A stretch of DNA of 64,000 nt from Opitutaceae bacterium EW11 (GTDB taxonomy: Bacteria > Verrucomicrobiota > Verrucomicrobiia > Opitutales > Opitutaceae), in assembly GCA_003054665.1 (NCBI GenBank), contig QAYY01000001.1:485501-549500 (forward strand), read 5' to 3'. Below the pieces are notes generated by a model. The model had not been told where the DNA came from. It searched no databases and saw only the letters and a program-made list of their open reading frames with translations. The number at the start of each line of letters is the position of its first letter. The stretch's first letter is position 1. Below, piece after piece: positions 28,970 to 61,582 of this stretch. The position numbers were made by a program, and so were the translations under genes.

Positions 28970-31225
28970 ATGAAGCCTTCCCTCCTCCTCTCGCTGATCT
29001 GCCTGAACGCGTGGGCTTTCACCTCCGGCTACGGCGCATCCCTGCGCATCTACGTGTCGCCGCAGGGAAACGATCTCTGGTCGGGTCTGCTCCCCGCGCC
29101 GAACGCCAGTCGCAGCGACGGTCCGTTGGCTACTCTGGAACAGGCGCGCGATACCGCCCAGGCCGCGGCAGGGGGCGACGACGTGACCATCGTCGTGCAG
29201 GAAGGCGTGTATCCACGAACTCAAGCGCTCCAGCTCGGCCCGAACGATTCGGGCAAACCCGGCCGCCCGATTGTCTGGCGCGCGCCTGAGACCGGAAAAG
29301 CCGTTTTCACCGGGGCCGTCGCGGTCGACCGGCTCGAGCGCCTGACCGATCCCCAGGTTCTGCGGAGGCTCTCGCCTTCGGTGCGGGGCAAGATCCTCGT
29401 GGCCGATCTTCGGGCCCAGCACCTCACCGACTTCACCGGGCCCGCACAGCGCGGCTCCCCCGGCCTCGAGCTTTTCTACCGCGGCCGGCGAATGCCCCTC
29501 GCCCGATACCCGAACGAGGGCTGGCTCCGCATCGCCGGCGTGCCCCAGACCGGCCCGCACCGGTTCAACGAGGGGCTCGAGCGCGAAAAACGCTTCGCCG
29601 GGATTCCAGCGGGCCGGCACTACGGCCGCATCGTGTGCGACGACGACCGGCCTTCGCACTGGGCGCCCGACGACTCGATTCTCGCGCATGGTTTCTGGAC
29701 GTGGGACTGGAGCGATTCCTTCCAGCCGGTGCAGTCGATCGACAAGGCGAGCCGCGAGATCACCTTCGCCGAGCCGCATCACGCATACGGATACACGCAG
29801 GGCCAGCGATTCTATTTTCTCAACGTGCTGGAGGAGCTCGACCGTCCCGGGGAATGGTACCTCGACCGGAAGCTCGGCCGGCTCTATTTCTATCCTCCGG
29901 GCCCGGTTGAGGCCGGCGATCTGACTGTCTCCGTGCTGAACGAGCCCTTCTTCCGCCTCGACGGCGCAAGCTACATCCACCTCGAGGGCTTCTCCTTCAC
30001 CGCCAGTCGCGCCGGCGGCGTTTCCATCGAGGGAGGCACGGAATGCTCCATTCGCGGCTGCACCTTCAGCCAGCTCGGAGGTCTGGCCGTGAAAATCGAC
30101 GGAGGTCTCCGGCACGAACTCCGCGGCTGCGACCTGGATAACCTCGCCACCGGAGCGGTGCTCGTCCGGGGCGGCGACCGCAAGACGCTCGCTCCGTCCA
30201 GCCACCGCGTGATCAACAATCACATCCATCATTTCGGGCAGTGGCTGCTGACGGGAGAATACGCGGTGCTGATCGACGGCGTCGGGCAATACGTCGCGCA
30301 AAACCTGATACACGACGCTCCGTTCGAGGCGATTTACCTGCGGGGCAACGACCACATGGTCGAGCTGAACGAAGTCTACCGCGTCGTCCAGGAGACGGGC
30401 GACGCAGGCGCGCTCCACACCGGGCGCGACTGGACCTGGCGCGGCAACATCATCCGCAACAATTACTGGCACCATCTCCAGGGGCCGGGCCTGCACGGCG
30501 CGACCGCGGTGTACCTCGACGATTTCTCCAGCGGCTTCGAGGTCACCGGCAACATCTTCTACCGGGCCGGGCGAGCGATCCAGATCGGCGGAGGCCGGGA
30601 CAACACCGTCGCCAACAACCTTCTGATCGAATGCGAGCCGGCGCTTCACATCGACGCCCGCGGTCTTGGGTGGGCCTCCAACTATTTCGACGGCAGCTAC
30701 CCCTGGCTTTTCGACCGATACCGGGAGATGGATGGCGGCGCCGCTCCGTACGCCGACCGATATCCGCCGCTGAAAATCCTCCTTCAGGACGAACCCGCCG
30801 TTCCGAAGGGAAATCGCGTGATCGAGAACATTTCCTGGGGAGGTCGCTGGCTCGACGTGTACGACTTCTTTGCCTTCGATTTTTCCCGCGCCGTCGCGAT
30901 GCGCGACAATCTCGTCGCCGATCGCGGTCTCCTCCGACGCCGTGCGAAGTCCGACGGGCAGAAGGATCCCTATTACCTCAATATCGACGCGAAGGAGGGC
31001 TACGTTCTCATCGCAAACGGGACCGCCGAGGCCGAACAGGCCCTTCCCGGAAACCGCCTCAGGACGGTCCCGCCCGCGACTTTCAATCCGTCCACCCTGG
31101 CGCTGACCTTCACCGACTCCGGCGCACTCGGGACGTTTCATTTCCGGCCGCTGCCCGTCTCCCGCATCGGACTCCAGGTCGACGACTGGCGGCCGGTAGT
31201 GCCGCCGCACTACACGGGAAAATGA
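28970..31225 (+). CDS. right-handed parallel beta-helix protein (GH141-like candidate)
   Basis: A 751-residue exported protein from ATG 28970 with signal peptide LLLSLICLNAWAFTSGYGA. The opening IYVSPQGNDLWSG, PLATLEQARDTAQ and YPRTQALQL is the usual entry to bacterial beta-helix carbohydrate enzymes, followed by a beta-sandwich-like insertion (about 130-320) and repeated helix coils (GFSFTASRAGGVSIEGG, RVINNHIHHFGQ, NLIHDAPFEAIYLRGNDHMVELNEVY, GALHTGRDWTWRGNIIRNNYWH). The layout recalls GH141 fucosidases/xylanases and related families, but I cannot fix a family from sequence alone. The 263 bases before it hold no gene I can support. Confidence 0.72.
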   Translation: MKPSLLLSLICLNAWAFTSGYGASLRIYVSPQGNDLWSGLLPAPNASRSDGPLATLEQARDTAQAAAGGDDVTIVVQEGVYPRTQALQLGPNDSGKPGRPIVWRAPETGKAVFTGAVAVDRLERLTDPQVLRRLSPSVRGKILVADLRAQHLTDFTGPAQRGSPGLELFYRGRRMPLARYPNEGWLRIAGVPQTGPHRFNEGLEREKRFAGIPAGRHYGRIVCDDDRPSHWAPDDSILAHGFWTWDWSDSFQPVQSIDKASREITFAEPHHAYGYTQGQRFYFLNVLEELDRPGEWYLDRKLGRLYFYPPGPVEAGDLTVSVLNEPFFRLDGASYIHLEGFSFTASRAGGVSIEGGTECSIRGCTFSQLGGLAVKIDGGLRHELRGCDLDNLATGAVLVRGGDRKTLAPSSHRVINNHIHHFGQWLLTGEYAVLIDGVGQYVAQNLIHDAPFEAIYLRGNDHMVELNEVYRVVQETGDAGALHTGRDWTWRGNIIRNNYWHHLQGPGLHGATAVYLDDFSSGFEVTGNIFYRAGRAIQIGGGRDNTVANNLLIECEPALHIDARGLGWASNYFDGSYPWLFDRYREMDGGAAPYADRYPPLKILLQDEPAVPKGNRVIENISWGGRWLDVYDFFAFDFSRAVAMRDNLVADRGLLRRRAKSDGQKDPYYLNIDAKEGYVLIANGTAEAEQALPGNRLRTVPPATFNPSTLALTFTDSGALGTFHFRPLPVSRIGLQVDDWRPVVPPHYTGK

Positions 31226-31294: not shown

Positions 31295-32179
31295 ATGCCG
31301 CCTGACGTTGTCTACCTCGTGCCCGCCGTGAGCAGCGTCGTCTACGTCGCGGCCGCGCTCTCGATGAAACGCTCCGCCTCGTTCGGCGTCGGCGTGTGGC
31401 GCTCCACCTTCGTCGCCAATCTCACGGTCGGCGCGGTGTTCGCGCCTCTCTGGGTTCTGGGCGGCCACGGCCGTGAATGGTTCTGGCTTTGGCAGCCGGC
31501 GCTCGGCGGGGCCCTGTTTCTTCTCGGACAGATCGCGACGTTCGTCGCGCTGGAACACGGCGACGTCTCGGTCACCACGCCGGTGCTGGGGCTCAAGATC
31601 ATGATGGTGGCATTCTTCACCGTGCTCCTCCTGTCCGTGCCCGTTCCGCTGCCGCTCTGGTTCGCCGCGGGGCTGAGCACCATCGGCATCCTCCTCCTCA
31701 ACCGGAAGGATCACGCGCGCCCCGCTTCGCGTCGTTTGTTGCCCCTCGCCGCAGCGGTCGCGGCCGCCGCCAGTTTCGCCTGTTGCGACGTGCTGATCCA
31801 AAAATGGGTCCCCGCGTGGGGAGTCGGCCGGTTCCTTCCGTTGATGTTCGGATCGGTCGCCGTGCTTTCCGTCGCCCTGATCCCGCGCTTCTCGGCGCCC
31901 CTGACCGCCGTGCCCAGAGGCGCGTGGCCCTGGCTTCTAGGAGGATCGACCGCATTTGCCGTCCAAGCCGCCGCGCTCGCCTACGCCATCGGCGCCTTCG
32001 GACAGGCCACGGGCGTGAATATCGTCTACAGCTCGCGCGGACTCTGGAGCGTGCTCGCGGTGTGGAAAATCGGCCACTGGTTCGGCAACGAGGAGCAGGC
32101 CATGTCGGCGCCGGTACTGCGGTCGCGCATTTCCGGCGCGGTGCTGATGCTGCTGGCGATCGCTCTCGTTCTCCTCTGA
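31295..32179 (+). CDS. EamA/DMT-family transporter
   Basis: A 294-residue protein with about ten hydrophobic helices arranged as two five-helix repeats, the DMT layout. It opens with PPDVVYLVPAVSSVVYVAAALSMKR and contains FLLGQIATFVALEHGDVSVTTPVLGLKIMMVAFF. Members export amino acids, sugars or other metabolites; some import. It is convergent with the threonine-aldolase-like gene with only 31 bases between stops. Substrate unknown. Confidence 0.82.
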   Translation: MPPDVVYLVPAVSSVVYVAAALSMKRSASFGVGVWRSTFVANLTVGAVFAPLWVLGGHGREWFWLWQPALGGALFLLGQIATFVALEHGDVSVTTPVLGLKIMMVAFFTVLLLSVPVPLPLWFAAGLSTIGILLLNRKDHARPASRRLLPLAAAVAAAASFACCDVLIQKWVPAWGVGRFLPLMFGSVAVLSVALIPRFSAPLTAVPRGAWPWLLGGSTAFAVQAAALAYAIGAFGQATGVNIVYSSRGLWSVLAVWKIGHWFGNEEQAMSAPVLRSRISGAVLMLLAIALVLL

Positions 32180-32210
32180 AAGCGACGAGGCCGGCGGACG
32201 AGCAAGGCGG

Positions 32211-33332
32211 TCAACGCTTCGTCGCCTCGGCAGCGTCGGCGGCGAAGGCTTCGACATCCTGCTCCGCCGTCGCCCAGGAGCACATCAAGCGGCAGCCGGT
32301 TCCTCCGATGAAGTTGTAGAAATGCCACCCGCGGCGCTTCAGCTCGGCAGAAAGCGCGGACGGCATCTGGACGAACACCGCATTGGCTTCCGGCTCACGG
32401 ACGATCGAGATGTCCGGGATTCTCCGCAGTTCGGAGGCGAGTCGCTTCGCCATCGCGTTGGCGTGCGCCGCACGTTTCAGCCAGGCGCCGTTTTCCAACA
32501 TTCCGACCCATTGCGCGCTCAGGAACCGCATTTTGGACGCGAGCTGTCCGGCCTGTTTGCAGCGATAGTCGAACTCTCGCGCCAGCGCCGGATTGAAGAA
32601 AACCACCGCTTCGGTGCCCACCATGCCGTTTTTCGTCCCGCCGAAACAGAGCACGTCGACTCCCGCGCGCCAGGTCAGGTCGGCGAGCGACGCGCCGCCG
32701 TTTGCCTGGAGAGACGCTGCCGCGTTCGAAAACCGCGAGCCGTCCATGTGAACGGCGAGTTGGTGTTTTCGCGCCACGGCGGAGAGCGCCCGAATCTCGT
32801 CGGTGCCGTAGATCGTCCCCCATTCCGTCGCCTGGGTGAGCGTGAGCACCCGCGGCTTCGGGTAGTGAATGTCCGTGCGCTTCAACACGAGGCGTTCGAC
32901 GGCGTCGGGCGACAGCTTTCCGTCGGGCCCGCCCGCCAGAAGCAGCTTCGTTCCATTGGAGAAGAACTCGGGAGCCCCGCATTCGTCGGTTTCGACGTGC
33001 GCGGCCTCGTGGCAGATCACGCTGTGGTAACTCTGGCACAGGGAGGCGAGCGCCAGGGAGTTCGCCGCGGTGCCGTTGAAGACGAAGAAGACCTCCGCGT
33101 CCGGTTTTTCGAATACACTTCGGATCAGGTCGCAGGCGCGGTTGGTCCAGACATCCGTTCCGTAGGACGAGTGAAAGCCTTGGTTCGCTTCGCCGAGCGC
33201 CGCCCAGGCTTCCGGGCAGATGCCGGCGACGTTGTCGCTGGCAAAATGGTCCTTCGCCGCGCTGACCCCGCGGGCGGCGGACGCCGCGGGAAACCGGCCG
33301 TTGTTGGATACGGAGGCAGACGCTTCGTGCAT
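32211..33332 (-). CDS. threonine-aldolase-like PLP enzyme
   Basis: A 373-residue fold-type I PLP protein; start at 33332 (MHEASASV) chosen since the upstream frame runs into the preceding gene. Family features: HFASDNVAGICPEAW, SYGTDVWTNRACDLIRSVF, FVFNGTAANSLALASL, ICHEAAHVETDECGAPE, AVHMDGSRFSNAAASL and the PLP lysine K234 in FGGTKNGMVG. Low-specificity L-threonine aldolases cleave beta-hydroxy amino acids to glycine plus aldehyde. It starts 48 bases after the stop of the cysteine-synthase-like gene on the same strand, so the two are likely an operon. Confidence 0.88.
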   Translation of the reverse strand: MHEASASVSNNGRFPAASAARGVSAAKDHFASDNVAGICPEAWAALGEANQGFHSSYGTDVWTNRACDLIRSVFEKPDAEVFFVFNGTAANSLALASLCQSYHSVICHEAAHVETDECGAPEFFSNGTKLLLAGGPDGKLSPDAVERLVLKRTDIHYPKPRVLTLTQATEWGTIYGTDEIRALSAVARKHQLAVHMDGSRFSNAAASLQANGGASLADLTWRAGVDVLCFGGTKNGMVGTEAVVFFNPALAREFDYRCKQAGQLASKMRFLSAQWVGMLENGAWLKRAAHANAMAKRLASELRRIPDISIVREPEANAVFVQMPSALSAELKRRGWHFYNFIGGTGCRLMCSWATAEQDVEAFAADAAEATKR

Positions 33333-33379
33333 GGGGAACGGAATCTCAATGCGGGCCGCGGGTCGAGTGCGGCGTGCAC

Positions 33380-34366
33380 TCAACCGGCGGCCTTCAGTTC
33401 GCAAACGCCGGATACAGGCGAGACCCGGGTGAACAGCGGCGTGCTGAAATACCGCTCCGCCCGGTCGCACAGCAACGTCACCACCGTGGCGTCCCGCCCG
33501 AGCTCTTTCGCCACGCGCAAGGCCGCGGCGACGTTCGCCCCGGAAGAAGTCCCGACCAGCAGGCCGAACTCGCGGGTCAACCGCTGCGTCATTTCCATTG
33601 CCGCCGCGCTCGGGATCTTGATCGCGCCGTCGATCGGCGCGCCATCGAGGAGCTTCGGGATGAAGCCGTCGGCGACTCCCTCGATGAAGTGAGAACAGGG
33701 CGCCTCGCCCAGGAGCAGCGCGGCCTCCGCGGGCTCCATGGCGTAGATTCTCGTCCGGGAATTCGCCCGCCGAAGCGCGCGGGACACACCGGAGAGCGTT
33801 CCGCCGGTGCCATAGCCGGTGACAAACGCGGCCACCGGCCCAGGCGCCTGCCGCAGGATCTCGGCGCCGGTGGACTCCTCGTGATCGCGGGAGTTGAGCG
33901 GATTCTCGAACTGCCGCGGAAGGAAATACCGCTGATCCTTCGCCGCCATCTCTCGCGTGAGATCAATGCCGGTCCGATAGCCGCCCGCCGGGAACAGGAT
34001 GACCTCGCCGCCGAGTTGCCGGATGAGGTGCCGCCGTTCGCAGCTGGCCTTCTCCGAAATCGCGATCTGGACCCGATAGCCGCGGGACGCGCCCATCATC
34101 GCCAGCGCGACGCCGGTATTGCCGCTCGAACACTCGAGGATGATCGAGCCCGGCCGGAGCAGCCCCCGGCTTTCCGCGTCCTCGACCACCGCGCGCGCAA
34201 AGCGGTCCTTGATCGAGCCGCTGGGGTTCAGGAACTCGCATTTGGCGTAGATCGTCACTTCCTCCGGCATGAACCGGAGGGCGATCATCGGCGTGTTCCC
34301 GATCAGGGGGGCGATGGAGGCGGAGACGCCGGAGACCCGCCGTTCCGGCCCAAGGGGAGAATTCAT
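33380..34366 (-). CDS. cysteine synthase/CBS-family PLP enzyme
   Basis: A 328-residue fold-type II PLP protein from ATG at 34366. Seen: PLIGNTPMIAL, NPSGSIKDRFA with the PLP lysine K53, SSGNTGVALAMMGASRGY (phosphate-side loop), GYGTGGTLSGVSRALR and GTSSGANVAAALRVAKEL. The family includes O-acetylserine sulfhydrylase but also enzymes making 2,3-diaminopropionate and other beta-substituted alanines, and this copy is in no cysteine-biosynthesis context. The 16-bp palindrome at 34367-34382 touches the start codon, so there is no room for a Shine-Dalgarno site outside it; repression at the initiation region is likely. Confidence 0.88.
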   Translation of the reverse strand: MNSPLGPERRVSGVSASIAPLIGNTPMIALRFMPEEVTIYAKCEFLNPSGSIKDRFARAVVEDAESRGLLRPGSIILECSSGNTGVALAMMGASRGYRVQIAISEKASCERRHLIRQLGGEVILFPAGGYRTGIDLTREMAAKDQRYFLPRQFENPLNSRDHEESTGAEILRQAPGPVAAFVTGYGTGGTLSGVSRALRRANSRTRIYAMEPAEAALLLGEAPCSHFIEGVADGFIPKLLDGAPIDGAIKIPSAAAMEMTQRLTREFGLLVGTSSGANVAAALRVAKELGRDATVVTLLCDRAERYFSTPLFTRVSPVSGVCELKAAG

Positions 34367-34382
34367 GTAACCATGTGGTTAC
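34367..34382. promoter_or_regulatory. palindromic operator GTAACC-ATGT-GGTTAC
   Basis: A perfect inverted repeat with 4-base spacer, directly upstream of and abutting the start codon of the minus-strand cysteine-synthase-like gene. The best copy of a motif (GTAACY-N4-RGTTAC) found at five further non-random positions in the window. Bound protein unknown. Confidence 0.75.
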
Positions 34383-34433
34383 CTTTCCGCCGCCGATGTC
34401 AAACGCCGATTGGCCGTGAAGCCCGGCCGTTAT

Positions 34434-34449
34434 GTAACCGATTAGTTAT
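34434..34449. promoter_or_regulatory. palindromic operator GTAACC-GATT-AGTTAT
   Basis: Matches the GTAACY-N4-RGTTAC motif at 11 of 12 positions. It is 67 bases from the first copy, in the divergent promoter region, and lies six bases before TTGACG (34456-34461), a candidate -35 element for the plus-strand Gfo/Idh gene; the -10 element is weak. Confidence 0.7.
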
Positions 34450-34551
34450 TTCCGGTTGACGCCCGCCCGTTCCGGTGCAGGATCCGGCGATCGAGGGCAC
34501 GCGCGCCGGCTCCGCCTGATCGCGAGACGCCGCGCCCGTGAAGAACAACGC

Positions 34552-35439
34552 ATGCAGATCGGTATCGTAGGCACAGATACGTCCCACGCCGTCGCTTTCG
34601 CCGAGCACTTCCACCAGATCGGCGGGAGATCCCGCCGGACCGCGTTTCGGATCTCGGTCGGCTACGCCGGAGGCTCCGCGGAGATCCCGATCAGCGCCAC
34701 GCGCGTGAACGGCTTCCGGAAAACGCTGGAAGAACGCTTCGGGGTCGCCTTCGTCGGAAGCCCGGAGGAGGTCGCGGCCCGGTGCGATGCTCTCCTGGTT
34801 CTTTCCGTCGACGGCAACACGCACCTGCCTCTCGTCCGGATGCTGGCGCCTTTCGGCCGGCCCCTCTTCGTCGACAAGCCGTTCGCGCTCTCCAGCGCGG
34901 ACGCGAGGGAGATTCTCGCCGTCGCCCGCCGCCACGGGGCGCCGATCATGTCCTGTTCCTCCCTGCGTTTCGCGCCGGCGTTGACCGCGTTGCTCGAGTC
35001 CGGCCGGCCCAACGGCGCCGACTTCTACGGCCCGCTTTCGGTCCAGCCGGGGATTCCGACGCTCTTCTGGTACGGCATCCACGCCTGCGAAATGCTGGTC
35101 ACCGCGCTGGGGCCCGATTTTTCCACGGTCTCTCACGTAGCGCAGGGAGAGGATGAGGTGTACGCCGCCGTCTGGGAGGGGGGCGCCGTGGGCACGCTCA
35201 GGCTCAACGTGCGCGGCAGAGCCGCGTTTGGCGGCACGCTCCACTATCCGAATCGCAGCGCGTTCTGCGATGCGGGCGCGGGTTATTTCGGAAGCATGGT
35301 CGAGGCGGTGATCCAGTTTTTCAGGACCGGTGTGCCCCCGGTGGCGTCCGCCGACACGGCCGCCGTCATCCGTTTTCTCGAGGAGGCCAGCGCGGCTCGA
35401 GAGGCGCATTTGAGTAACTCTTCAGTTACTTTATCTTGA
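34552..35439 (+). CDS. Gfo/Idh/MocA-type oxidoreductase
   Basis: A 295-residue protein from ATG 34552 (MQIGIVGTDTSHAVAF, a GxxGxxxxH variant of the NAD(P)-binding P-loop); the frame is open upstream but starts outside the fold. The EKP-type catalytic motif appears as FVDKPFALSS. GIHACEMLVTALG provides the His of the active-site helix. It is shorter than the usual 330-390 residues, with a reduced C-terminal sheet domain. Substrate unknown, probably a sugar, sugar acid or inositol. First plus-strand gene of region C, behind the 34434 operator; its last codons overlap the 35414 operator. Confidence 0.8.
   Translation: MQIGIVGTDTSHAVAFAEHFHQIGGRSRRTAFRISVGYAGGSAEIPISATRVNGFRKTLEERFGVAFVGSPEEVAARCDALLVLSVDGNTHLPLVRMLAPFGRPLFVDKPFALSSADAREILAVARRHGAPIMSCSSLRFAPALTALLESGRPNGADFYGPLSVQPGIPTLFWYGIHACEMLVTALGPDFSTVSHVAQGEDEVYAAVWEGGAVGTLRLNVRGRAAFGGTLHYPNRSAFCDAGAGYFGSMVEAVIQFFRTGVPPVASADTAAVIRFLEEASAAREAHLSNSSVTLS
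35414..35429. promoter_or_regulatory. palindromic operator GTAACT-CTTC-AGTTAC
   Basis: A perfect GTAACT/AGTTAC inverted repeat with 4-base spacer inside the last codons of the Gfo/Idh gene and 143 bases before the epimerase start. As with the 34434 copy, TTGACG follows exactly six bases later (35436-35441), so an internal promoter for the following three genes is likely. Confidence 0.75.
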
Positions 35440-35571
35440 CGCTCCCTGCGCGGGGCGTTCATTGTCCGCCAGTTGCGCCGGCAGGCGCGCGCCGTGAGCC
35501 CGTCCGACCGGGCGGGCCTTCAGCATTCGCCGGCGCCGCTCCTTTCCTCCGCCCGCCGTCCTCCCATCTCC

Positions 35572-36603
35572 ATGACCGCCGTTCCCCTGAGATCGAATGA
35601 TGTCGACGACTTCCTCTCCGCTCCGCCTCCGCTCGCGGTGGACGCCGTGCGGGCGCTGGACGGCGATTTCCTCGTCCTCGGCGTGGGGGGAAAAATGGGC
35701 GCCTCGATCGCGCTCATGCTGCGACGGGCCCTGGCGGCGGCAGGAAAGCCGGAGACGACCGTGACCGGCGTCTCGCGTTTCAGCCGCCCCGAGCTGCGCG
35801 ACCGTCTCGAGCGGCAGGGCGTGCGAACGATCGCCTGCGACCTGACGGAGCCGGAACAGGTCGGACACCTGCCGCGCGTCGCAAACGTGATCTACCTCGT
35901 AGGCCAGAAATTCGGCACGACCGAGTCGCCTGAAACGACCTGGGTTCAGAACACCATTCCGGCCGCCCTCGTCGCACGCCACTTCTCCACGAGCCGCATC
36001 GTGGCGTTCTCCACCGGTTGCGTGTATCCGTTCGCGCCCGTCGGCGGACCGGGCTGCACCGAGGCGTCCGGCCTCTCGTTCGCCGGCGACTACGCGAGCT
36101 CCTGCATCGGACGAGAGCGGATCTTTTCGCATTATTCGCGCGCTCAGGGCACCCGCGTCGTGCTCTTCCGGCTCAACTACGCCGTCGAATTCCGGTACGG
36201 CGTGCTCGTCGACATCGCCGTTCGGGTCCGGGCCGGCGAGCCCGTCGACGTCACGACGGGATGGTTCAACTGCATCTGGCAAGGCGACGCCTGTGCGTAC
36301 GCGATCGCCTGTATTGCGCACGCGGCTACACCGGCCTGGATCATCAACGTCACCGGACAGGCCGTCCTTTCTGTCCGCGCGGTCGCGGAAGCCTTCGGAC
36401 GCCGTTTCGGCAAAGCGCCCGTCTTTACGGGCACCGAGGCCGGCACGGCCTGGCTGGCCGACGCGTCACGAAGCGTCCGGCTGTTCGGCGCGCCCCGGCA
36501 CGATCCGGAGCGGATGATTCAGCTGGTGGCCGACTATCTTGTCGCCGGTGGCGAGGTCCTGGGGAGGCCGACGCATTTCGAAGCCCGCGACGGCCAGTTC
36601 TGA
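35572..36603 (+). CDS. atypical NAD-dependent epimerase/dehydratase (extended SDR)
   Basis: A 343-residue protein from ATG 35572. Rossmann signature VLGVGGKMGASIALML (residues 36-51), then ANVIYLVGQKFGTTESPETTW, AFSTGCVYPF, and FRLNYAVEFRYGVLVDIA. At the place of the YxxxK catalytic motif it has Y174-ASS-C178 (GDYASSCIGRERIF): the tyrosine is kept and the lysine is replaced by cysteine. I recall similar wording in uncharacterised Planctomycetota/Verrucomicrobiota proteins, so this is probably a subfamily feature rather than decay. It is followed after seven bases by the DHDPS-like gene. Confidence 0.8.
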   Translation: MTAVPLRSNDVDDFLSAPPPLAVDAVRALDGDFLVLGVGGKMGASIALMLRRALAAAGKPETTVTGVSRFSRPELRDRLERQGVRTIACDLTEPEQVGHLPRVANVIYLVGQKFGTTESPETTWVQNTIPAALVARHFSTSRIVAFSTGCVYPFAPVGGPGCTEASGLSFAGDYASSCIGRERIFSHYSRAQGTRVVLFRLNYAVEFRYGVLVDIAVRVRAGEPVDVTTGWFNCIWQGDACAYAIACIAHAATPAWIINVTGQAVLSVRAVAEAFGRRFGKAPVFTGTEAGTAWLADASRSVRLFGAPRHDPERMIQLVADYLVAGGEVLGRPTHFEARDGQF

Positions 36604-36610
36604 GCTTTCC

Positions 36611-37657
36611 ATGGATATCCGTTCCCACCTTCTTGCGGGCCAGGCGATACCCGCACATCCCCTCGCCCTGGATTCGCGCCGGCGTTTTTCCGAAAGGCAC
36701 CAACGCGCGCTCACCCGGTATTATCTCGAATCGGGCGTAGGCGGGCTGGCCGTGGCCGTCCACTCCACCCAATTCGAGATTCGCGAACCGAAACACGGCC
36801 TGCTCCGGCCCGTGCTCGAACTCGCCGCGGAGACAGCCCGTGAAACCGTCCCGCTCACGGGGCACGAGGTCGCGCTCATCGCCGGAGTTTGCGGCAGGAC
36901 GATCCAGGCGGTGTCCGAGGCGGCTCTGGCGCGCGACCTGGGCTATCACGCCGCTCTCGTCAGCATGGCCGCCCTCGCGAGCGAAAAAGAGTCGTTCATC
37001 CTGAACCATCTGAAAACCGTGGCCGAGACCATGCCGATCATCGGCTTTTATCTCCAGCCGACCGTCGGCGGACGTGTATTCACCGTGGCCTTCTGGCGGG
37101 CGGTGGCGGAAATCCCGAACCTCGTCGCAATCAAGATCGCTCCGTTCAACCGATATCAGACGGTCGATGTCGTCCGGGCGACCGTCGAGGTCGGCCGCGA
37201 GGATCTGGCGCTCTACACCGGAAACGACGACGCGCTGGTCACCGATCTTCTCACGCCGTTTCAGTTCGAGCGCGATCATGCGACTGTCACGCGGCGGATC
37301 GTCGGCGGACTTCTGGGCCACTGGGGCGTGTGGACCCGGGCGGCAGCCGCCCTCTTCGAACAAATCAAGGTGGTCCGAAACCAGCCCGTCCTCGACGCCG
37401 CGTGGCTGACGCGAGCGGCCGCCGTGACCGACATGAACGCTGCGGTGTTCGACCCCGCGCACCAATTCGCCGGATGCATTCCGGGCATCCTCGAAGTGCT
37501 GCGCCGCCAGGGGCTCGTGCACTCGCGCTGCTGTCTCGATCCGCGTGAGTCGCTTTCTCCTGGGCAAGCTCAGGAACTCACCCGGGTGTCCGCCGCCTAT
37601 CCCGAGTTGACCGACGACATTTTTGTCGCGCAGAACCTGGACCGCTGGCTTCGCTGA
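36611..37657 (+). CDS. DHDPS/NAL-family aldolase
   Basis: A 348-residue TIM-barrel protein from ATG 36611, overlapping no neighbour but only seven bases after the epimerase. Schiff-base lysine K175 in NLVAIKIAPFNRY and tyrosine Y147 in IIGFYLQPTVGG are at the family positions; the G-x-GG entry (SGVGGLAVAV) replaces the usual GTTGE. The family condenses or cleaves pyruvate with an aldehyde (dihydrodipicolinate, N-acetylneuraminate, 2-keto-3-deoxy sugar acids, hydroxyproline derivatives). It is about 50 residues longer than classical DapA, with an extended C-terminus. Together with the epimerase it suggests a sugar-acid or amino-acid catabolic route, not lysine synthesis. Confidence 0.85.
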   Translation: MDIRSHLLAGQAIPAHPLALDSRRRFSERHQRALTRYYLESGVGGLAVAVHSTQFEIREPKHGLLRPVLELAAETARETVPLTGHEVALIAGVCGRTIQAVSEAALARDLGYHAALVSMAALASEKESFILNHLKTVAETMPIIGFYLQPTVGGRVFTVAFWRAVAEIPNLVAIKIAPFNRYQTVDVVRATVEVGREDLALYTGNDDALVTDLLTPFQFERDHATVTRRIVGGLLGHWGVWTRAAAALFEQIKVVRNQPVLDAAWLTRAAAVTDMNAAVFDPAHQFAGCIPGILEVLRRQGLVHSRCCLDPRESLSPGQAQELTRVSAAYPELTDDIFVAQNLDRWLR

Positions 37658-37691
37658 AACGCGGGCCGCGCAGGCCTGCTCGCGAATCTCC

Positions 37692-38849
37692 ATGAACCTC
37701 CCGGAAACCTGCGAGGAACTGCTCGCTCAGATGGTCTCGTTCGACACGGTCAACGCCCGTTACGCCGGGCGGACGAGCGGCGAGGGCGCGCTCGCGAAAC
37801 ATCTGGAGGTCCTGGCGTCGGCTTGGGGGCTCTCGCACCGCCGTTACCCTGTGGCCGAGGGAGCGTTTAATCTTCTCGTGTTCCGCGAGACCGCGCCGGG
37901 ACGCGAGTGGCTCCTTTTCGAGAGCCACCTCGACACGGTCGGGGTGCAGGGCATGACCGTTCCGCCGTTTTCCCTGACCCGCTCGGGGTCGCGGCTCCAG
38001 GGCCGCGGTGCCTGCGACACGAAAGCCTCCGGCGCAGCCATGCTCTGGGCACTGCGGACGAGTCCGTCGTCGAAGCTCCGATGGCCCAATGTCGGCGTAC
38101 TCTTCACTGTCGACGAAGAGGCAGGCATGACGGGAGCCTCCGCCTTCGCACGAAACGATCTCCCGCACTGGCCCGGACAATTGGCCGGCATCGTCGTGGG
38201 AGAGCCCACGGAGCTGAAGCCCGTCGCGGCGCACAACGGCGTGGTCCGCTGGACCACCGTCACGCGCGGCCGGTCCGCGCACTCCTCGGATCCTTCCCGA
38301 GGCAGCTCCGCCATTCTCGCGATGCTCCGAGTGATTTCGAAAATGGAGGAGAGCTACATTCCGGCCGTATCCAGGCGCAGGCACCCGCTGACCGGAGCCG
38401 CAGCCTGCAGCATCAACGTCATCCGCGGAGGAACGCAGGTGAACGTCATCCCCGATCGCTGCGAGATCGAAGTCGACCGGCGGCTGATTCCGGGCGAAAC
38501 CGCCGCCGAGGCGCTTCAGGAGCGGGACCGGATCCTGGCGCCGCTGCAGGGAACTCCGGATACAGGACCGGTCGAGCATCTGCCTCCCTACGTCCTCCCT
38601 CCGCTCGCGCCGGAAGCGAACCTCGCGTTTCTCGAGCGGCTCGCGCCTGCGCTGACCGCCCAGGGGCTGTCTTCGGAGCCGACCGGCGCGCGTTATGTCA
38701 CGAACGCGAGCTGCTACGGCGCAGCAGGCGCGCCCGCCGTGGTCCTGGGCCCGGGCAGCATCGCTCAAGCCCACACCGCCGACGAGTGGCTGGAGAGCGA
38801 ACAGCTCCGGGCAGCGGTCGAACTTTACCGGGCGGTCGTTTTGGCATGA
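37692..38849 (+). CDS. M20-family amidohydrolase/deacylase (ArgE/DapE-like)
   Basis: A 385-residue protein from ATG 37692, 34 bases after the DHDPS-like gene. Metal and catalytic residues are intact: H79 and D81 in ESHLDTV, D109 in GRGACDTKASG, E142 in VDEEAGMTG, E in VVGEPTELKP, and a C-terminal His in SIAQAHTADEW. The dimerisation domain starts near HNGVVRWTTVTRGRSAHSS. The family hydrolyses N-acyl amino acids and related amides using two zinc ions. No signal peptide; cytoplasmic. Within this operon it would deacylate an N-acyl substrate or intermediate. Confidence 0.88.
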   Translation: MNLPETCEELLAQMVSFDTVNARYAGRTSGEGALAKHLEVLASAWGLSHRRYPVAEGAFNLLVFRETAPGREWLLFESHLDTVGVQGMTVPPFSLTRSGSRLQGRGACDTKASGAAMLWALRTSPSSKLRWPNVGVLFTVDEEAGMTGASAFARNDLPHWPGQLAGIVVGEPTELKPVAAHNGVVRWTTVTRGRSAHSSDPSRGSSAILAMLRVISKMEESYIPAVSRRRHPLTGAAACSINVIRGGTQVNVIPDRCEIEVDRRLIPGETAAEALQERDRILAPLQGTPDTGPVEHLPPYVLPPLAPEANLAFLERLAPALTAQGLSSEPTGARYVTNASCYGAAGAPAVVLGPGSIAQAHTADEWLESEQLRAAVELYRAVVLA

Positions 38850-38965
38850 GCGAGACTCCGCCCGCCCGCTCTCCGCGATCATCTCTGTCGTGGGCAACGT
38901 GCAGCGTTGATTGCGCGCGGAGTGCGCCGTAGGGATGTCGGCCACCCCACCCATCTGTCGCTTCC

Positions 38966-39610
38966 ATGCCTACTTCAACTCGCTCCCCAGCAAAACGTAA
39001 GCGCTCGCTCCCGGTGCGGGAGCGTCTGCTCCGCGCCGCCACCAAGCTCTTCGCCCGCTCCGGCTTCGACGGGACCACCGTCGACGAGGTGGTGGACACG
39101 GCCGGCGTCAACAAGCGCATGGTGTATCACTATTTTGGTAACAAGGAGCAGCTGTATCAGGAGGTGCTCGCGGAGGCCTACCGAAGCCTGGAGGTGCTGG
39201 AGACCGAGACGCTCGCGGACGGAAAGGACATCGACAGCATCACCGCCCACATCGTCCGCATGTACTTCGACTTTCTCGCCGGCCACCCTGAGTTCGTCCG
39301 ACTCCTCCTCTGGGAGAATCTCAACGACGGCCGCGGGCTCGACAACGCCGGCGACCGGTTGACGAAAGACCCGATGGTCAACGCCCTCGAAAAACTGCTG
39401 CAGAAGGGCATCGCCGAGGGCCGCATCCGCCCGGACATGGATGCCCGGCACCTTCTGATCAGTCTCATCGGGCTCTGCATGGTGTACCGCTCGAATCGCT
39501 ACACGCTTTCCCGCGCGCTTCACATGGACCTGGGTTCGCCCCGGGTGCTCGACGACGGCGTGCGCCACGTGACGCGTCTGCTTCTCGAGGGCATCAAGTC
39601 GCCGAAGTGA
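38966..39610 (+). CDS. TetR/AcrR-family transcriptional regulator
   Basis: A 214-residue protein from ATG 38966. The TetR HTH lies at about residues 18-65: RERLLRAATKLFARSGFDGTTVDEVVDTAGVNKRMVYHYFGNKEQLY. The C-terminal helical ligand domain (YFDFLAGHPEFVRLLLWENLNDGRG) resembles the TetR_C group of RutR-like or CerR-like proteins. It is 116 bases after the M20 gene, in the same direction, and is a candidate for the protein that binds the GTAACY palindromes, although none of them lies at its own promoter. Confidence 0.88.
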   Translation: MPTSTRSPAKRKRSLPVRERLLRAATKLFARSGFDGTTVDEVVDTAGVNKRMVYHYFGNKEQLYQEVLAEAYRSLEVLETETLADGKDIDSITAHIVRMYFDFLAGHPEFVRLLLWENLNDGRGLDNAGDRLTKDPMVNALEKLLQKGIAEGRIRPDMDARHLLISLIGLCMVYRSNRYTLSRALHMDLGSPRVLDDGVRHVTRLLLEGIKSPK

Positions 39611-39647: not shown

Positions 39648-41042
39648 TTAAGGAGCCGGCACGGCCGAGCACGCGCACACCGGAACAGGCGTGGGCCCGA
39701 GCGGAAGCTGGGAGCCAACCTCGTTCTCGGATGTGCCCGTCAACCGGATACCGAGGAGCTCCGCACAGCAGGACAACTCGGGGCGGTAATCGCCGTAGGT
39801 CATCACCACGTGCGTTCCGTCCAGGCATTCGAGGAAGCGCCGAGAGGACGGGATGTGCACGCGAATCTGCGTGTGGCAGGTCGGCTGTTTGGCCACCGCA
39901 AGCGCCCGCCCCGGGTGCACGCACAGTTCGGACAAGCCCGCGCCGATGCGGGCGAGCGTCACCGCCCGGTTTCCCGGCAGGCGCACTTCCGGCGAGACGC
40001 CCCGGCCGCTTTCGTGGTGCCGGAGCAGCCGGTACGACAGGCGCTCTCCGCCGACGCACCGGGGCGCCGTGCAGTGCGCCAGATCGATGCAATCGGTGGA
40101 ATGAATGATCGGATTGGCGATCCAGACAAATCCCGCCGACAAGGCTTTCAGAAGGAACAGCGTCACGGCGGCATCGAGGTCGCCCTCGCACGCGCCGATC
40201 GCGTCCGCCGAGTCGTTCAGGGCCGACAGCGCCAGGCAGCTGGTCGTATTCAGTTCCCCGATCATGGCGAAGCACGCCATCGACAACGCGTCCGCGGAAT
40301 GCTCCTGGAGAAGCCGCCGCATCGCCACGATCACGCGGGCGGCCCGGATGACGTCGGTGTGATTCGCCCCCATGAACAGCGTCGTGCGCGCGGTCCAGTC
40401 GTCCGCCACCGGCGACGCCTCGCCGTCCGTCACGCGCCGAAACGCGGTGTAGAGCTCGGTCGCCTCGAGAGGCGTTACCTCGCATCCCAGCGCCTGGCGA
40501 AATCGCTCGGGGTCGCGGGTGCTGTTGATGACCCACGGCTCCGTTTCGCCGATTTTCAGAATCCTCGCGGAGCGCAAGCGCTGCACCGCCTGGTGAGCGT
40601 TCGCGTACCGATGCAGGTCCTCGCGCTGGCCGATCCAGCGGGCGGCGCGGCCTCGAAGCCGCCGGTGCGCGAAGAAGTCGGTGCACGCCGGATGCGCGTT
40701 GCGCTCCAGCAGCTGCGCTCCGAGCGCGGGGGTGAGGAACCCCGGCAGATACGCGTTCGCCAAGCCGGCGTGCGCCAGAGATTCCGCCAGCTCCACCAGC
40801 CATGGCTGGACCGCGCCGCTCAGCGGCAGCAGCACTGCGGTCTTGCTCTTCAGCTCGAGGGTAACCGCCGCGAGTTCCGTGGCGTTGTCCACCAGGCGAA
40901 AATCGAGGGGCGCCGGCGAGCCGGCGCGCAGTTCGGCGCAAAGTTCATCGAACACCCTGCGCAGTCTCGCCTGATCCGGCCAATAGACCGGACTGGCGAA
41001 GGCAATCACGGGAAGCGCGTAGTAGGTCTGCAGTGCATTCAT
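39648..41042 (-). CDS. L-fucose/L-arabinose isomerase-family protein
   Basis: A 464-residue protein from ATG at 41042; longer upstream frames overlap the next gene. C-terminal half shows the FucI-type metal site: MIGELNTTSCLALSALND, ACEGDLDAAVTLFLLKAL with E286, and DLAHCTAPR with H323. The N-terminal part is divergent from FucI (ASPVYWPDQARLRRVFDELCAEL). The family isomerises aldoses to ketoses using Mn2+. It is 44 bases downstream of the large glycosidase-like gene on the same strand. Fucose or another deoxy/pentose sugar fits, but relatives of this shape are uncharacterised. Confidence 0.72.
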   Translation of the reverse strand: MNALQTYYALPVIAFASPVYWPDQARLRRVFDELCAELRAGSPAPLDFRLVDNATELAAVTLELKSKTAVLLPLSGAVQPWLVELAESLAHAGLANAYLPGFLTPALGAQLLERNAHPACTDFFAHRRLRGRAARWIGQREDLHRYANAHQAVQRLRSARILKIGETEPWVINSTRDPERFRQALGCEVTPLEATELYTAFRRVTDGEASPVADDWTARTTLFMGANHTDVIRAARVIVAMRRLLQEHSADALSMACFAMIGELNTTSCLALSALNDSADAIGACEGDLDAAVTLFLLKALSAGFVWIANPIIHSTDCIDLAHCTAPRCVGGERLSYRLLRHHESGRGVSPEVRLPGNRAVTLARIGAGLSELCVHPGRALAVAKQPTCHTQIRVHIPSSRRFLECLDGTHVVMTYGDYRPELSCCAELLGIRLTGTSENEVGSQLPLGPTPVPVCACSAVPAP

Positions 41043-41086: not shown

Positions 41087-43504
41087 TCACCGTTTCGCTC
41101 GGGCATGCCTCCTCCCCCACCGCCATAAGACCGGCTCGAGAACGCCGAACTGGTCGGTCAGCAGCCCCTCGTAACCGCAAGGCCGATCGTCCCAGTGGCG
41201 CCAATCCACGCCGCTTTTGTTGCCGCCAAACACCCGCGCGCCGGCCAGGCCGGCGCAGAGCCGCTCGAGGATCCTGTCCGCCTCGCGCGTCAGCCCGCAG
41301 TGGTAGAGCCCCATCACGAAGTGGCGGGCCTGGGCGTGGGTGCGTCCGCCGTTTTGGTAATAGCCAAACGGATACCCTTGGGCGATGTCGGCCAGATCGT
41401 CGTCGGGGATGGGCCGGAGATTCCCCGGCAATCCGAGGACGGGGTCCGGCATTCCCACCAGCTTCGCCTCCGCGAGAAGGCGGCTCATCACGCGTCGCGC
41501 CTCGGGAGTATCGAGCAAGCCTTCAGCCACCGCGGCCCCGTTCACCGGCAGAAAAGCGTAATCGTGCAGCCGTCCCTCCTTGCACCGCCACCCCGCGAGC
41601 CAGCCGGTAGCGTCGTTCCAAAAAGTCCGCCGGAAGTTCCTTCGGAGCGTCGTCGCCCAGAGCGAGAGCCCGGCCGCCTCGTCGCGTTCGCCAAAACGCC
41701 TCAGGCCTGCGGTCAGGGCGTTCAAGGCTCCGTAGAGAATGGCGTTCGCAAACGCGTCCTTCCATCCAAACGAAATCACGTCGAACCAGCACGTGCTCCA
41801 TTGCGCCGTCCCGCTGACACCCGTTCGGAAAGGACTTTCGATCAGTCCGTCCGCGTCGAGATCGCGCCCGCGCGCCGCATTCAGTTTCGACAAGATCCAC
41901 GGCCGGAATTCCCGGAACCAGGCCGGCGTGGCCTCGTTTCGCAGGTAGTCTCCGAGGCCGCGGAGAGCGGAGGCGCCGGTCATGAGGTACTCGTCGTCCG
42001 CGTCGTGCGAGGAGCCGCCCTCCACCAGCCGCCCGGCGGCGTACCCGGGGCCTCCGGTCAGCCAGCGCTCGAGCGAAAACCGCAAGAACTCGCCGGCGGG
42101 CAGCCCGGGAAGAACGGGGCCGAGGCGCAGCGACACCGCGGACCAGGTATCCATGCAGATCGGACAATGAATCGACGCGCCGTTGTTGCTCAGCGTGCCG
42201 GTGTCGGCTCGAAACGTCAGCGCGGTCCACTGCGTGCGGGCCAACGCGCGTTGCGCCGACCGGGGCGCACCCGGGCGCAGCGAGGGTTTCGGCATCGCCG
42301 GGCGGAGCGTCACCACCGCGCGGTGCCGGCCCGCCGCCAGAAAATACAGTCCTTCCGGAGTGGCCGTCTCTCCCACTTTCAACTCCAGGGTGTTCAGATC
42401 CTGCGATCTCCAGCAGTCGCTTCGCGCCCAGGCAGCCGAACGGGTCGAGGCGATCCTCCAGGTCCCGCAGCCGGGCAGATTCAGCAGCGCCGGAAGCTCG
42501 ATCCCTCCTGTCTCGCCCACCGTGCGGGGTCGGCCCAGGACGTGGGACGGCGTCGCGCTGTTGCGCAGTCCGATCACCCAGGCGGCGCTGTGCCAGGCGA
42601 GCGCCGCCTTCTTCGAAAACCGTTCGAGCTCCAGCCGAAGCCCCGACGGAGCGACGCGCCACACGATCCGGTACCGCTGACCTCCCGAGGAGAACAGGTA
42701 CCGCACGGTGGCTCCCAGCACCTGCACGGTTCCGTCCAGGTCGCACCGCGTCGTCGGCGCGATCGAGGGAGGCGTTCCCAGGAGGTGCAGCTGCGGTCCC
42801 TGAAAGAACTGCGGTGGACGGGTCGCCAACAGATTCGGCGACGCGACGCCAGGCGTCTCCACCGACAGACCTAGATGGGAGAAACCGGGGCGCCCGAGAA
42901 CAAACCCGACTTCGAAGTCCCGCGTGCCATACCGCACGGCGCCATCCTCCACGACCGCCGACACGCCGCGCGGCAGAGTCTTCACGTCGATGCCGGACAC
43001 CCGAAGCAGCCTTTCTTTTCGCGGGGCCAGCGGCTCGAGCAGTTCTCCTTCGAGGACGAAGGCGGACATCGCCAGGTTCCACGGAGTCCATCCGCCGTCG
43101 ATTCCGGATTGGCGGATTTCGAGGATCACGCCGCTGGTCTCGATCTGCGGGAGCGGTATCCACTCCACCGATCCGGGCACCGGCGGCCGCAAGCCGCGGC
43201 GGTGGCAGATTTCCCGCCAGCGTCCCGCCTGAAACGCCAGAACCCGCAGAGCGGCGACCCAGTCGTGGTCCTGGCGGCTGCCGCATTTGTGATACCCCGG
43301 ACCGCGTTGCAGTCCCAAGCGGTGCAGGCACGCCCGCCCGTGGAGGCGGACGATCCTCTGGTGAACGATGCGGTTCGACGGCAGATTGTCCTCCTCCGGC
43401 AGCGGCGTTGTCCAAATCGCGCGGCCTGCATCCAGACGACAACGGGTGCAAAGGTCGCCCATCGGGGGCTCGTGATCGGCGACGGCGAGAAGGTCCTGCA
43501 GCAT
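41087..43504 (-). CDS. large (alpha/alpha) six-hairpin glycosidase-like protein
   Basis: An 805-residue protein if it starts at 43504 (MLQDLLAVADHEPP); the frame continues to 43699, which would run into the divergent promoter. The N-terminal half is beta-rich (LRVSGIDVKTLPRGVSAVVEDG). The C-terminal third is an alpha/alpha toroid: DADGLIESPFRTGVSGTAQWSTCWFDVISFGWKDAFANAILYGAL, and QNGGRTHAQARHFVMGLYHCGLTREADRIL, as in GH15/63/94-like enzymes, with acidic residues at hairpin ends. I cannot assign a family. No signal peptide is evident, suggesting a cytoplasmic enzyme acting on imported oligosaccharides. Confidence 0.6.
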   Translation of the reverse strand: MLQDLLAVADHEPPMGDLCTRCRLDAGRAIWTTPLPEEDNLPSNRIVHQRIVRLHGRACLHRLGLQRGPGYHKCGSRQDHDWVAALRVLAFQAGRWREICHRRGLRPPVPGSVEWIPLPQIETSGVILEIRQSGIDGGWTPWNLAMSAFVLEGELLEPLAPRKERLLRVSGIDVKTLPRGVSAVVEDGAVRYGTRDFEVGFVLGRPGFSHLGLSVETPGVASPNLLATRPPQFFQGPQLHLLGTPPSIAPTTRCDLDGTVQVLGATVRYLFSSGGQRYRIVWRVAPSGLRLELERFSKKAALAWHSAAWVIGLRNSATPSHVLGRPRTVGETGGIELPALLNLPGCGTWRIASTRSAAWARSDCWRSQDLNTLELKVGETATPEGLYFLAAGRHRAVVTLRPAMPKPSLRPGAPRSAQRALARTQWTALTFRADTGTLSNNGASIHCPICMDTWSAVSLRLGPVLPGLPAGEFLRFSLERWLTGGPGYAAGRLVEGGSSHDADDEYLMTGASALRGLGDYLRNEATPAWFREFRPWILSKLNAARGRDLDADGLIESPFRTGVSGTAQWSTCWFDVISFGWKDAFANAILYGALNALTAGLRRFGERDEAAGLSLWATTLRRNFRRTFWNDATGWLAGWRCKEGRLHDYAFLPVNGAAVAEGLLDTPEARRVMSRLLAEAKLVGMPDPVLGLPGNLRPIPDDDLADIAQGYPFGYYQNGGRTHAQARHFVMGLYHCGLTREADRILERLCAGLAGARVFGGNKSGVDWRHWDDRPCGYEGLLTDQFGVLEPVLWRWGRRHARAKR

Positions 43505-57964: not shown

Positions 57965-58815
57965 GGCGTATCCGTGAAGGTCAGACGATGCTCGATCGGC
58001 AGCTCGGCGTCCGGCGCGAGGAGCAGGTCGCGCTCGTACTGGAAGGGAAAGGCGGCGAGAGGATTGTGACGGCGCACGAACCAGTGCACCGGATCGCGGC
58101 TGAGAAACCGGATGGCGACCCGCCGCAGCGAGGTGTCCTTCTGCGTGCGCCACTCCATCCAGTTCGAAGCGGCGCCGTGGACCTCCGCCTCTCCGCTGCC
58201 GCCGTCCTGGGAGAAGATGCCGATACGCGCGTCGCCGTGTTCGTCCAACAGCTCCCGCGTCCCGCGAAACTGCAGGCCCGTGTAGTGCGATCCTTTCAGC
58301 CCCTGGCTGGAAAAGTAGTTTCCCAGGACGAGAGGCCGGCCCGAGACGTTCTTCAAGAGTGTCCGCCACGTCATCTCCCAGGAGTTCGCGTCGATCAGCC
58401 GCATGCCGATTTCCCGTTTTTCGTCGAGCAGCACCTGGCCCTTCTCGCCGACCTCCCAGGCCACCGTGTGCTGAAGGCGCGAGGGGCTCATTTCCCCCCA
58501 GGAAACATGGCGTTGCCGTCCCTGGTCGTTCATCCACCGATAGCCGAGATCACGGTAGTAGGTCGGGCCGCCCCAGAAATTGTGGCCGGAAACCTGGTTG
58601 ACGGTGAAACTCAGCCCGTGGTGCCAGGGGTGATCGTTGGGACGGAAACAGGTGAGCACCTCGCCGGAGAGACTGCACACGGGGTGGGCATAGGGCCGAG
58701 GCGCTTCCGACCGCGGTGTGTCCGGTTGGAAAACGTACCGCAGAAGCAAGCCGCCGGCGCGCTGTCGGATCTCGACCGCACGGTCGCCGTCCTGGACGAG
58801 TATCAGCTCGTTCAT
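57961..58815 (-). CDS. PmoA-like DUF6807 protein
   Basis: A 284-residue protein from ATG at 58815, overlapping the GH78 stop as ATGA. Family features: DGDRAVEIRQRAGGLLLRYVFQ, YAHPVCSLSGEVLTCFRPNDHPWHHGLSFTVNQV, and ANSWEMTWRTLLKNVSGRPLVLGNYFSSQGL. The HPWHHG motif is diagnostic of the domain, which is named PmoA but is not methane monooxygenase; its biochemical role is undetermined. Located between rhamnosidase and aminotransferase, it probably acts on rhamnosides or their products. No signal peptide. Confidence 0.88.
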   Translation of the reverse strand: MNELILVQDGDRAVEIRQRAGGLLLRYVFQPDTPRSEAPRPYAHPVCSLSGEVLTCFRPNDHPWHHGLSFTVNQVSGHNFWGGPTYYRDLGYRWMNDQGRQRHVSWGEMSPSRLQHTVAWEVGEKGQVLLDEKREIGMRLIDANSWEMTWRTLLKNVSGRPLVLGNYFSSQGLKGSHYTGLQFRGTRELLDEHGDARIGIFSQDGGSGEAEVHGAASNWMEWRTQKDTSLRRVAIRFLSRDPVHWFVRRHNPLAAFPFQYERDLLLAPDAELPIEHRLTFTDTP

Positions 58816-61568: not shown

Positions 61569-61582
61569 CGTTGTTGTGCTCC

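Follow-up and report, generated by a model that had tools for sequence, protein, structure and literature searches.

Sequence analysis of a TetR-linked gene cluster built around a conserved EPI-DHDPS gene pair in Opitutaceae bacterium EW11

Genes in the cluster

The gene cluster examined here is found in Opitutaceae bacterium EW11 (GenBank assembly GCA_003054665.1), in a stretch of 64 000 nucleotides from contig QAYY01000001.1 (positions 485 501 to 549 500), which is referred to below as the window. Seven genes make up the cluster (Table 1). Two of them, encoding pyridoxal phosphate (PLP) enzymes, form an operon that is divergent from the other five, which encode a Gfo/Idh/MocA-type oxidoreductase, an atypical epimerase-like protein (EPI), a relative of dihydrodipicolinate synthase (DHDPS), an M20 amidohydrolase and a TetR-family regulator. 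All of these genes were found at the positions and on the strands reported in an initial annotation, which had been made from the DNA letters alone. The EamA transporter gene that it placed at the convergent end of the cluster is indeed convergent but lies just outside the interval that was given. The start codons of the genes listed are our choice. All seven genes and the EamA gene pass the cut-offs of their own Pfam models, EamA only barely.

Table 1. Genes and putative operators in and around the cluster (positions are those of the window)
Feature	Position	Strand	Match or context
L-threonine-aldolase-like gene, second of divergent operon	32211-33332	-	PF01212, 8e-62
Cysteine-synthase-type PALP-fold PLP enzyme, first of divergent operon	33380-34366	-	PF00291, 4e-68
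Gfo/Idh/MocA-type oxidoreductase, short and divergent in sequence	34552-35439	+	PF01408, 3e-8
EPI, epimerase-like atypical extended SDR, core gene	35572-36603	+	PF01370, 5e-7
DHDPS/NAL-fold lyase of separate subfamily, core gene (putative)	36611-37657	+	PF00701, 3e-9
M20 amidohydrolase, ArgE/DapE-like	37692-38849	+	PF01546, 9e-27
TetR-family regulator (TetR_C_29)	38966-39610	+	PF17938, 1e-26; PF00440, 3e-17
EamA transporter, convergent with aldolase gene	31295-32179	+	Pfam, 28.5 vs 28.2 bits cut-off
TetR operator GTAACCATGTGGTTAC (putative)	34367-34382		abuts start codon of cysteine-synthase-like gene
TetR operator GTAACCGATTAGTTAT (putative), then TTGACG	34434-34449		upstream of Gfo/Idh
TetR operator GTAACTCTTCAGTTAC (putative), then TTGACG	35414-35429		upstream of EPI
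Fourth TetR operator (putative)	61370-61385		between GH78-type rhamnosidase gene and LacI gene
805-aa protein	41090-43504	-	no Pfam, NCBIfam or PDB sequence match
777-aa protein	43703-46033	+	no Pfam, NCBIfam or PDB sequence match
Right-handed beta-helix protein	28970-31222		GH141 insertion domain, below threshold
Fucose-isomerase-like protein (by eye)	39651-41042	-	best NCBIfam model sulfoquinovose isomerase, far under cut-off
Sodium:solute symporter (SSS)	47138-49177	+	long N-terminal extension, kelch-like by eye
GH78-type rhamnosidase gene	58812-61256	-	
LacI gene	61496-62629	+	followed by TonB-receptor-like frame (by eye)

The M20 protein contains both the catalytic and the dimerization domain (PF01546, 94.7 bits, and PF07687, 63.6 bits, both above cut-off), and scores below the NCBIfam equivalog cut-off for ArgE, the acetylornithine deacetylase (207.8 vs 297.7 bits). 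The cysteine-synthase-like protein is below the corresponding cut-off for CysK (315.5 vs 350.95 bits), and the DHDPS-like protein is far below that of the DapA model TIGR00674 (25.8 vs 206.15 bits). Housekeeping roles as DapA, ArgE or CysK were rejected on these scores. One PLP enzyme had been labelled as CBS-family, but it resembles cysteine synthase more closely than cystathionine beta-synthase; it is one of three members of its family in the genome at E≤1e-40. The threonine-aldolase-like label given to the other agrees with a match of 469 bits to a solved L-threonine aldolase (PDB 5vye), extending over residues 28-367 of 373 (phmmer). Because this protein reaches only 60 bits with the NCBIfam model for low-specificity threonine aldolases (cut-off 312), it belongs to another clade. 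At E≤1e-40, it is the single match of its family in the genome.

Conservation of the EPI-DHDPS pair and its neighbours

Relatives of the DHDPS-like protein are encoded in 543 stretches from the genomes of 84 980 species (tblastn, E≤1e-3). The sample studied consisted of 80 named loci (the best 80 of the 543 stretches, skewed to Opitutaceae), 19 loci around relatives, 40 spread over the phylum and 10 annotated regions of plasmids, i.e. 149 loci besides the window. Removal of 14 of the 150 loci (window included) as duplicates with near-identical DHDPS reduced the number to 135 non-redundant loci besides the window. A homology-weighted script chose the open reading frames (ORFs) in the neighbourhoods, not always correctly. 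Neighbours were scored within 8 kb of the DHDPS gene, either by tblastn (1e-8) or with hidden Markov models (HMMs), and the two counts differ slightly (47 vs 49 for M20 and 45 vs 44 for TetR).

The EPI gene adjoins the DHDPS gene, on the same strand and within 400 bp, in 118/135 loci. Among the remaining 17, it is on the same strand 0.5-1 kb away in five and 6.3 kb away in one, and on the other strand 2.2 kb away in one. None was seen in ten, two of which have the DHDPS gene at a contig edge. The loci are mostly from Verrucomicrobiota, with others from Bacillota, Actinomycetota and Pseudomonadota. To judge from this gene order, EPI and DHDPS form a conserved operonic core. In 57 near genomes, relatives of the DHDPS-like protein were found in 20 (the window's own included) and EPI matches also in 20, one of them weak and partial. 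A survey of 288 genomes of the phylum recovered a DHDPS match of at least 51 % identity in 63 (including the window's own genome and one contig-end fragment), matches of 27-33 % only in six more, and none in 219. As the identities split in this way, the DHDPS-like protein represents a sharply bounded subfamily.

Using HMMs, an M20 gene was found near the core in 49/135 loci, a TetR gene in 44/135 and a Gfo/Idh gene in 13/135. M20 is thus the commonest enzyme besides EPI among the neighbour families scored, and two M20 subfamilies, ArgE-like and TIGR01891 type, are represented. A blind Pfam tally, which covered the nearest 130 of 332 neighbouring ORFs in 56 loci, was led by TetR (22), the alpha (10) and beta (8) chains of L-serine dehydratase (SDH) and M20 (6), followed by Aminotran_3, AP_endonuc_2, Hepar_II_III_C and ACT (4 each). 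Two plasmid loci (L146 and L147, from Tistrella and Sulfitobacter) carry the EPI-DHDPS pair inside a cluster for an ABC importer with a GNAT acetyltransferase and a TetR gene, which is unlike a glycan setting.

A cluster resembling the core pair is not described in the titles and abstract starts listed for the literature on oxidised chitin, glucosaminate, uronates, DHDPS-family proteins, TerB and mycosporine-like amino acids. Likewise, no characterised relative of the pair was found in literature listings, PDB sequence searches or NCBIfam, though families outside the structural-comparison listings are not excluded.

The predicted structure of the DHDPS-like protein (predicted local distance difference test, pLDDT, 94.0) has the TIM-barrel fold of the DHDPS/N-acetylneuraminate lyase (NAL) superfamily, with Z about 33 to DHDPS structures. 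In this superfamily, a lysine forms the Schiff base, a tyrosine participates in catalysis and a Ser/Thr-Thr site binds the carboxylate of the 2-oxo acid. In HMMER alignments, the residues that correspond to these are K175 (kept in 56/56 sequences), Y147 (52/56), S or T at position 52 (56/56) and T53 (56/56). On the model and the alignment, the protein is a member of the superfamily in both fold and catalytic residues, and it is a putative Schiff-base lyase acting on a 2-oxo acid. However, it has HSTQF where members of the superfamily have the GGTTGE stretch, is only 15-20 % identical to the solved members listed and is about 40-60 residues longer.

The model of EPI (pLDDT 94.3) is closest in structure to TerB (Z 31.6, 2.4 Å, 291 residues aligned). 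In common with extended short-chain dehydrogenases/reductases (SDRs) such as TerB and the UDP-sugar epimerases, EPI keeps the fold and the active-site Ser and Tyr (Y174 in 54/54 aligned sequences). However, the lysine of YxxxK, the catalytic motif of SDR enzymes, is replaced by Cys, C178 in the window's protein, in 53/54 sequences and by Ala in one. EPI therefore has the extended SDR fold but lacks the YxxxK motif of the NAD(P)-dependent oxidoreductases and epimerases. Two other lysines, K41 and K113, are invariant in the same alignment.

An ammonia-lyase for L-serine or L-threonine, belonging to one of two unrelated folds, is found within 2 kb of the core in 21/135 loci. The alpha chain of Fe-S SDH accounts for 18 of these, 17 on the same strand as DHDPS, and the fetched loci contain none at a greater distance. 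In 10/18, no more than 50 bp separate DHDPS from the start of the SDH beta-chain gene. Pfam SDH_alpha matches just 4/57 near genomes, and one of the four copies is the one beside DHDPS; it has no match in the window's genome, and there is no ammonia-lyase in the window's locus. In all five loci tested (L118, L111, L150, L177 and L160), SDH passes the equivalog cut-off for L-serine ammonia-lyase; L150 carries it with another M20 type. In three loci, a threonine ammonia-lyase of the PALP fold, which is not homologous to SDH, is no more than 10 bp downstream of DHDPS. Two of the three were scored: the L109 protein passes its cut-off, and the L108 protein, which is cut by a contig end, narrowly misses it (371.5 vs 378.75). 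These lyases, of the SdaAA/SdaAB and IlvA types, stand directly after DHDPS in at least 13 of the 21 loci; one is divergent and, in some of the 21, a gene separates lyase and DHDPS. A PALP model that included the window protein picked up six PALP enzymes no farther than 8 kb from DHDPS, and three of these follow it immediately; tblastn with the window's cysteine-synthase-like protein recovered none of these neighbours.

Operators and the putative TetR regulon

The pattern TAAC-N6-GTTA occurs in the window at 34368, 34435, 35415 and 61371, with a fifth site 16 kb past the window's end. The initial annotation had the two sets of genes share operators, and this part of it stands. The refined form TAAC[CT]N4[AG]GTTA is present four times vs 0.017 expected per window (1 in 60 Markov-1 simulations). 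The loose form has 11 copies in the 6.4 Mb genome, five of them inside 46 kb at this region. As the same pattern read backwards is commoner (27 copies genome-wide), the evidence is one of clustering and not of global excess. A looser scan for GTAACN6GTTAC with two mismatches found 9 sites vs 6.8 expected, no excess over chance. When GTAAC-N6-GTTA was counted in 13 whole genomes, 7 of them had as many or more forward-strand copies of the backwards pattern, and lone operator-like sites far from these loci therefore mean little.

Upstream of the core, the site accompanies one type of regulator. The 300 bp before EPI, or before DHDPS if EPI was lacking, were searched for TAAC-N6-GTTA, and a site was found in 23/25 loci whose TetR shares 40 % or more identity with that in the window; all 23 fit the refined form. 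The exceptions are L107 and L133. Loci with a less similar TetR had no site (0/20), and 6/86 loci tested (of 90) without a TetR match had one. The control palindrome was absent upstream of the core in all 25 close-TetR loci (0/25), and the background is 0.006 per 300 bp over all loci, with the core-upstream sites counted in. By this comparison, an operator of the form GTAAC-Y-N4-R-GTTAC is conserved upstream of the core and is putatively bound by TetR.

In the closest TetR clade (L079, L080, L082, L083, L086, L088, L090, L121, L122 and L129) and at the EPI and Gfo/Idh promoters of the window (34415-35430), TTGAC follows GTTA after 6-9 nt in 12/12 operators, and is likely to be a -35 box. Such a position upstream of the -35 box is seen more often with activators. 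Many other loci instead have the operator no more than about 25 nt from the start codon of EPI. One operator is thus seen in two promoter designs, before a TTGAC box in the closest clade and near the start codon elsewhere. In one genome (G036, contig C10, loci L133/L193), there is a second EPI-DHDPS copy with a TetR that is 42 % identical and no operator upstream of EPI. Five operator-like sites there are near genes recognised by eye as Gfo/Idh, DegT, AMP-ligase-like, lyase-like and ceramidase-like. Elsewhere (L196, 9041-12973, genome G102), cas-like genes, again recognised by eye, are a few kb from an operator-like site and are presumably unrelated.

A distant operator in the window's genome is directly upstream of a block, 30 kb away, made up of genes for an amidohydrolase, a second protein and a DegT protein; a second DegT gene and genes for an SSS symporter and a heparinase-like protein are nearby. 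Two relatives (G004 and G006) likewise have the operator in front of this amidohydrolase gene, and there too the block is split off, 44-51 kb from EPI. Across 136 loci, 37-39 have genes of the block no more than 6 kb from DHDPS, almost always on the opposite strand. Because the operator is common to both, we infer that the block and the window's cluster belong to one regulon, and the cluster would then be part of a wider TetR regulon reaching past the coordinates of the cluster itself.

Several further features surround the cluster. The fourth operator in the window, with the GH78-type gene on one side and the LacI gene on the other, may link the cluster to rhamnose-containing glycans. The 805-aa and 777-aa proteins are 68-73 % identical (best segment) to copies beside the TetR block in L121, L122 and L129, and are possible new glycosidase families. 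Relatives of the beta-helix protein are encoded close to the TetR block in L122 and L129. In the fetched loci, no match was found to the fucose-isomerase-like protein, nor, at 1e-30, to the symporter encoded in the window.

Possible functions of the cluster

The reading that we favour, tentatively and with less than even confidence, is that the cluster is part of a TetR-controlled regulon with which a glycan-degrading bacterium would break down a conjugate and set a beta-hydroxy-L-amino acid free. The substrate would be an imported sugar- or uronate-type molecule bearing a beta-hydroxy-L-amino acid (Ser or Thr) in N-acyl or amide linkage. The M20 enzyme would hydrolyse the amide of the imported conjugate, and the freed amino acid would be destroyed by an L-Ser/L-Thr ammonia-lyase in some relatives and, in the window, by the L-threonine aldolase together with the cysteine-synthase-type enzyme in the ammonia-lyase's role. 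Gfo/Idh and EPI would convert the carbon skeleton to a 2-oxo acid, which the DHDPS-like enzyme would cleave or dehydrate via a lysine Schiff base, probably with release of pyruvate, and TetR would sense an intermediate of the pathway. This appears to be the best explanation because enzymes predicted to strip an acyl group off an amino acid and enzymes predicted to destroy L-Ser or L-Thr recur at the same core. The idea of a catabolic route for a beta-hydroxy amino acid or an N-acyl amino sugar acid, already put forward in the initial annotation, gains independent support from the ammonia-lyases beside the core and from the retained Schiff-base residues.

Several observations weigh against the conjugate pathway. 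The aldolase gene and the cysteine-synthase-like gene were each found near the core in none of the loci by tblastn (0/135 each), and the same was true of EamA. An HMM for the aldolase, built from one sequence, likewise found none. The aldolase gene is single-copy in 24/57 near genomes, including the window's own, and orthologues of the cysteine-synthase-like gene are by DsbD- or TlpA-like genes in four of the seven places fetched (by eye). NagA is found in 10/135 core loci and NagB in 6/135, and other core loci contain a mandelate-racemase-type enzyme, a CoA-transferase or sugar ABC transporters. Among the 25 close-TetR loci, eight have SDH or PALP and eight have NagA, with zero overlap. SDH alpha and the ArgE-like M20 are found together in 6/135 loci vs 6.5 by chance and are thus not associated.

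Since none of the other loci links the core to the aldolase, the cysteine-synthase-like gene or EamA, the seven genes are not one ancestral unit, and a single seven-gene ancestral system was rejected. The one system originally proposed holds for EPI, DHDPS, M20, TetR and Gfo/Idh, which recur as neighbours, but not for the other three genes. By its operator, which abuts a start codon, the PLP pair appears to be joined to the rest in this genome only, as a local recruit.

One alternative is a pure sugar-acid or uronate pathway, in which EPI is a dehydrogenase or epimerase, the DHDPS-like enzyme is a 2-keto-3-deoxy-acid aldolase or dehydratase, the part played by M20 and the amino-acid genes is at most accessory, and the cysteine-synthase/aldolase operon has a housekeeping function and bears an operator by chance. 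We consider this somewhat unlikely. In its favour, the EPI-DHDPS pair of Gram-positives is accompanied by Gfo/Idh, sugar isomerases and sugar ABC transporters and that of Nitratireductor by a mandelate-racemase-type enzyme, SDH and M20 are not associated, and the PLP genes are unlinked elsewhere. Against it speak SDH alpha, which among the fetched loci is never more than 2 kb away from DHDPS, M20 in 49/135, an operator that abuts the cysteine-synthase-like start codon and an EPI without the SDR lysine. That the cluster is a haphazard collection of normal genes for making lysine (DapA), arginine (ArgE) or cysteine is extremely improbable; family-level names alone suggest it, and it is opposed both by the scores below cut-off for DapA (far below), ArgE and CysK and by a core that is conserved with a TetR operator.

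The route originally suggested, catabolism of an N-acyl amino sugar acid, is comparable to the ong pathway for oxidised chitin (GlcNAc1A) in Pseudoalteromonas, which in the passages of its description that bear on it includes a repressor, TonB receptors, an SSS importer, an N-deacetylase, a PLP deaminase and 2-keto-3-deoxygluconate (KDG) (PMC9537276). In such a route, M20 would deacylate the substrate, a deaminase would form a 2-keto-3-deoxy acid from a 2-amino-3-hydroxy sugar acid by beta-elimination, and this product would be split by the DHDPS-like enzyme into pyruvate and an aldehyde. M20, the deaminase slot and the Schiff-base lyase are thereby fitted in a single line, the regulon block includes an SSS symporter, and NagA and NagB are present in some loci. 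The likeness to ong would lie in a repressor-controlled catabolic cluster with an N-deacylase, a PLP deaminase, an SSS importer, TonB receptors and a 2-keto-3-deoxy acid. Nevertheless, we regard this route as unlikely. All five SDH tested pass L-serine ammonia-lyase cut-offs, which suggests free L-serine and not a sugar acid as the substrate, the local PLP enzyme is cysteine-synthase-like, and EPI is left without a role. Further, the same passages give the ong pathway its own putative D-aminoacylase (OngB), which is not an M20 enzyme, a D-amino acid deaminase and a KDG kinase, and name no DHDPS-like lyase or EPI (PMC9537276). An OngB-type D-aminoacylase, an OngC deaminase and a KDG kinase were not found among the eight proteins encoded in 31295-39610, the rest of the genome not having been searched. 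Because the protein families differ, the cluster is not an ong cluster, although the route considered here would work like one.

A bolder form of the favoured conjugate pathway, which we think distinctly unlikely, is that EPI and the HSTQF-type lyase constitute a new two-enzyme funnel for glycan building blocks bearing L-Ser or L-Thr, with interchangeable amino-acid lyases and one activator-like TetR. Here, a lysine-less enzyme of the SDR fold would pass an unusual 2-oxo acid to the Schiff-base lyase. The amino-acid lyases would be Fe-S SDH, PALP or, in the window, the L-threonine aldolase with a cysteine-synthase paralogue, and the closest-clade TetR would act, activator-style, at a fixed distance upstream of the TTGAC box.

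The recurring L-Ser/L-Thr lyases and the conserved operator make both the substrate class and the regulation testable. The DHDPS-like protein has many relatives and is paired with EPI in most loci examined, yet no assigned reaction was found for it. If the conjugate pathway is correct and amino-acid-bearing glycans serve as food, it would represent a route by which Verrucomicrobiota recycle both the sugar and the amino acid.

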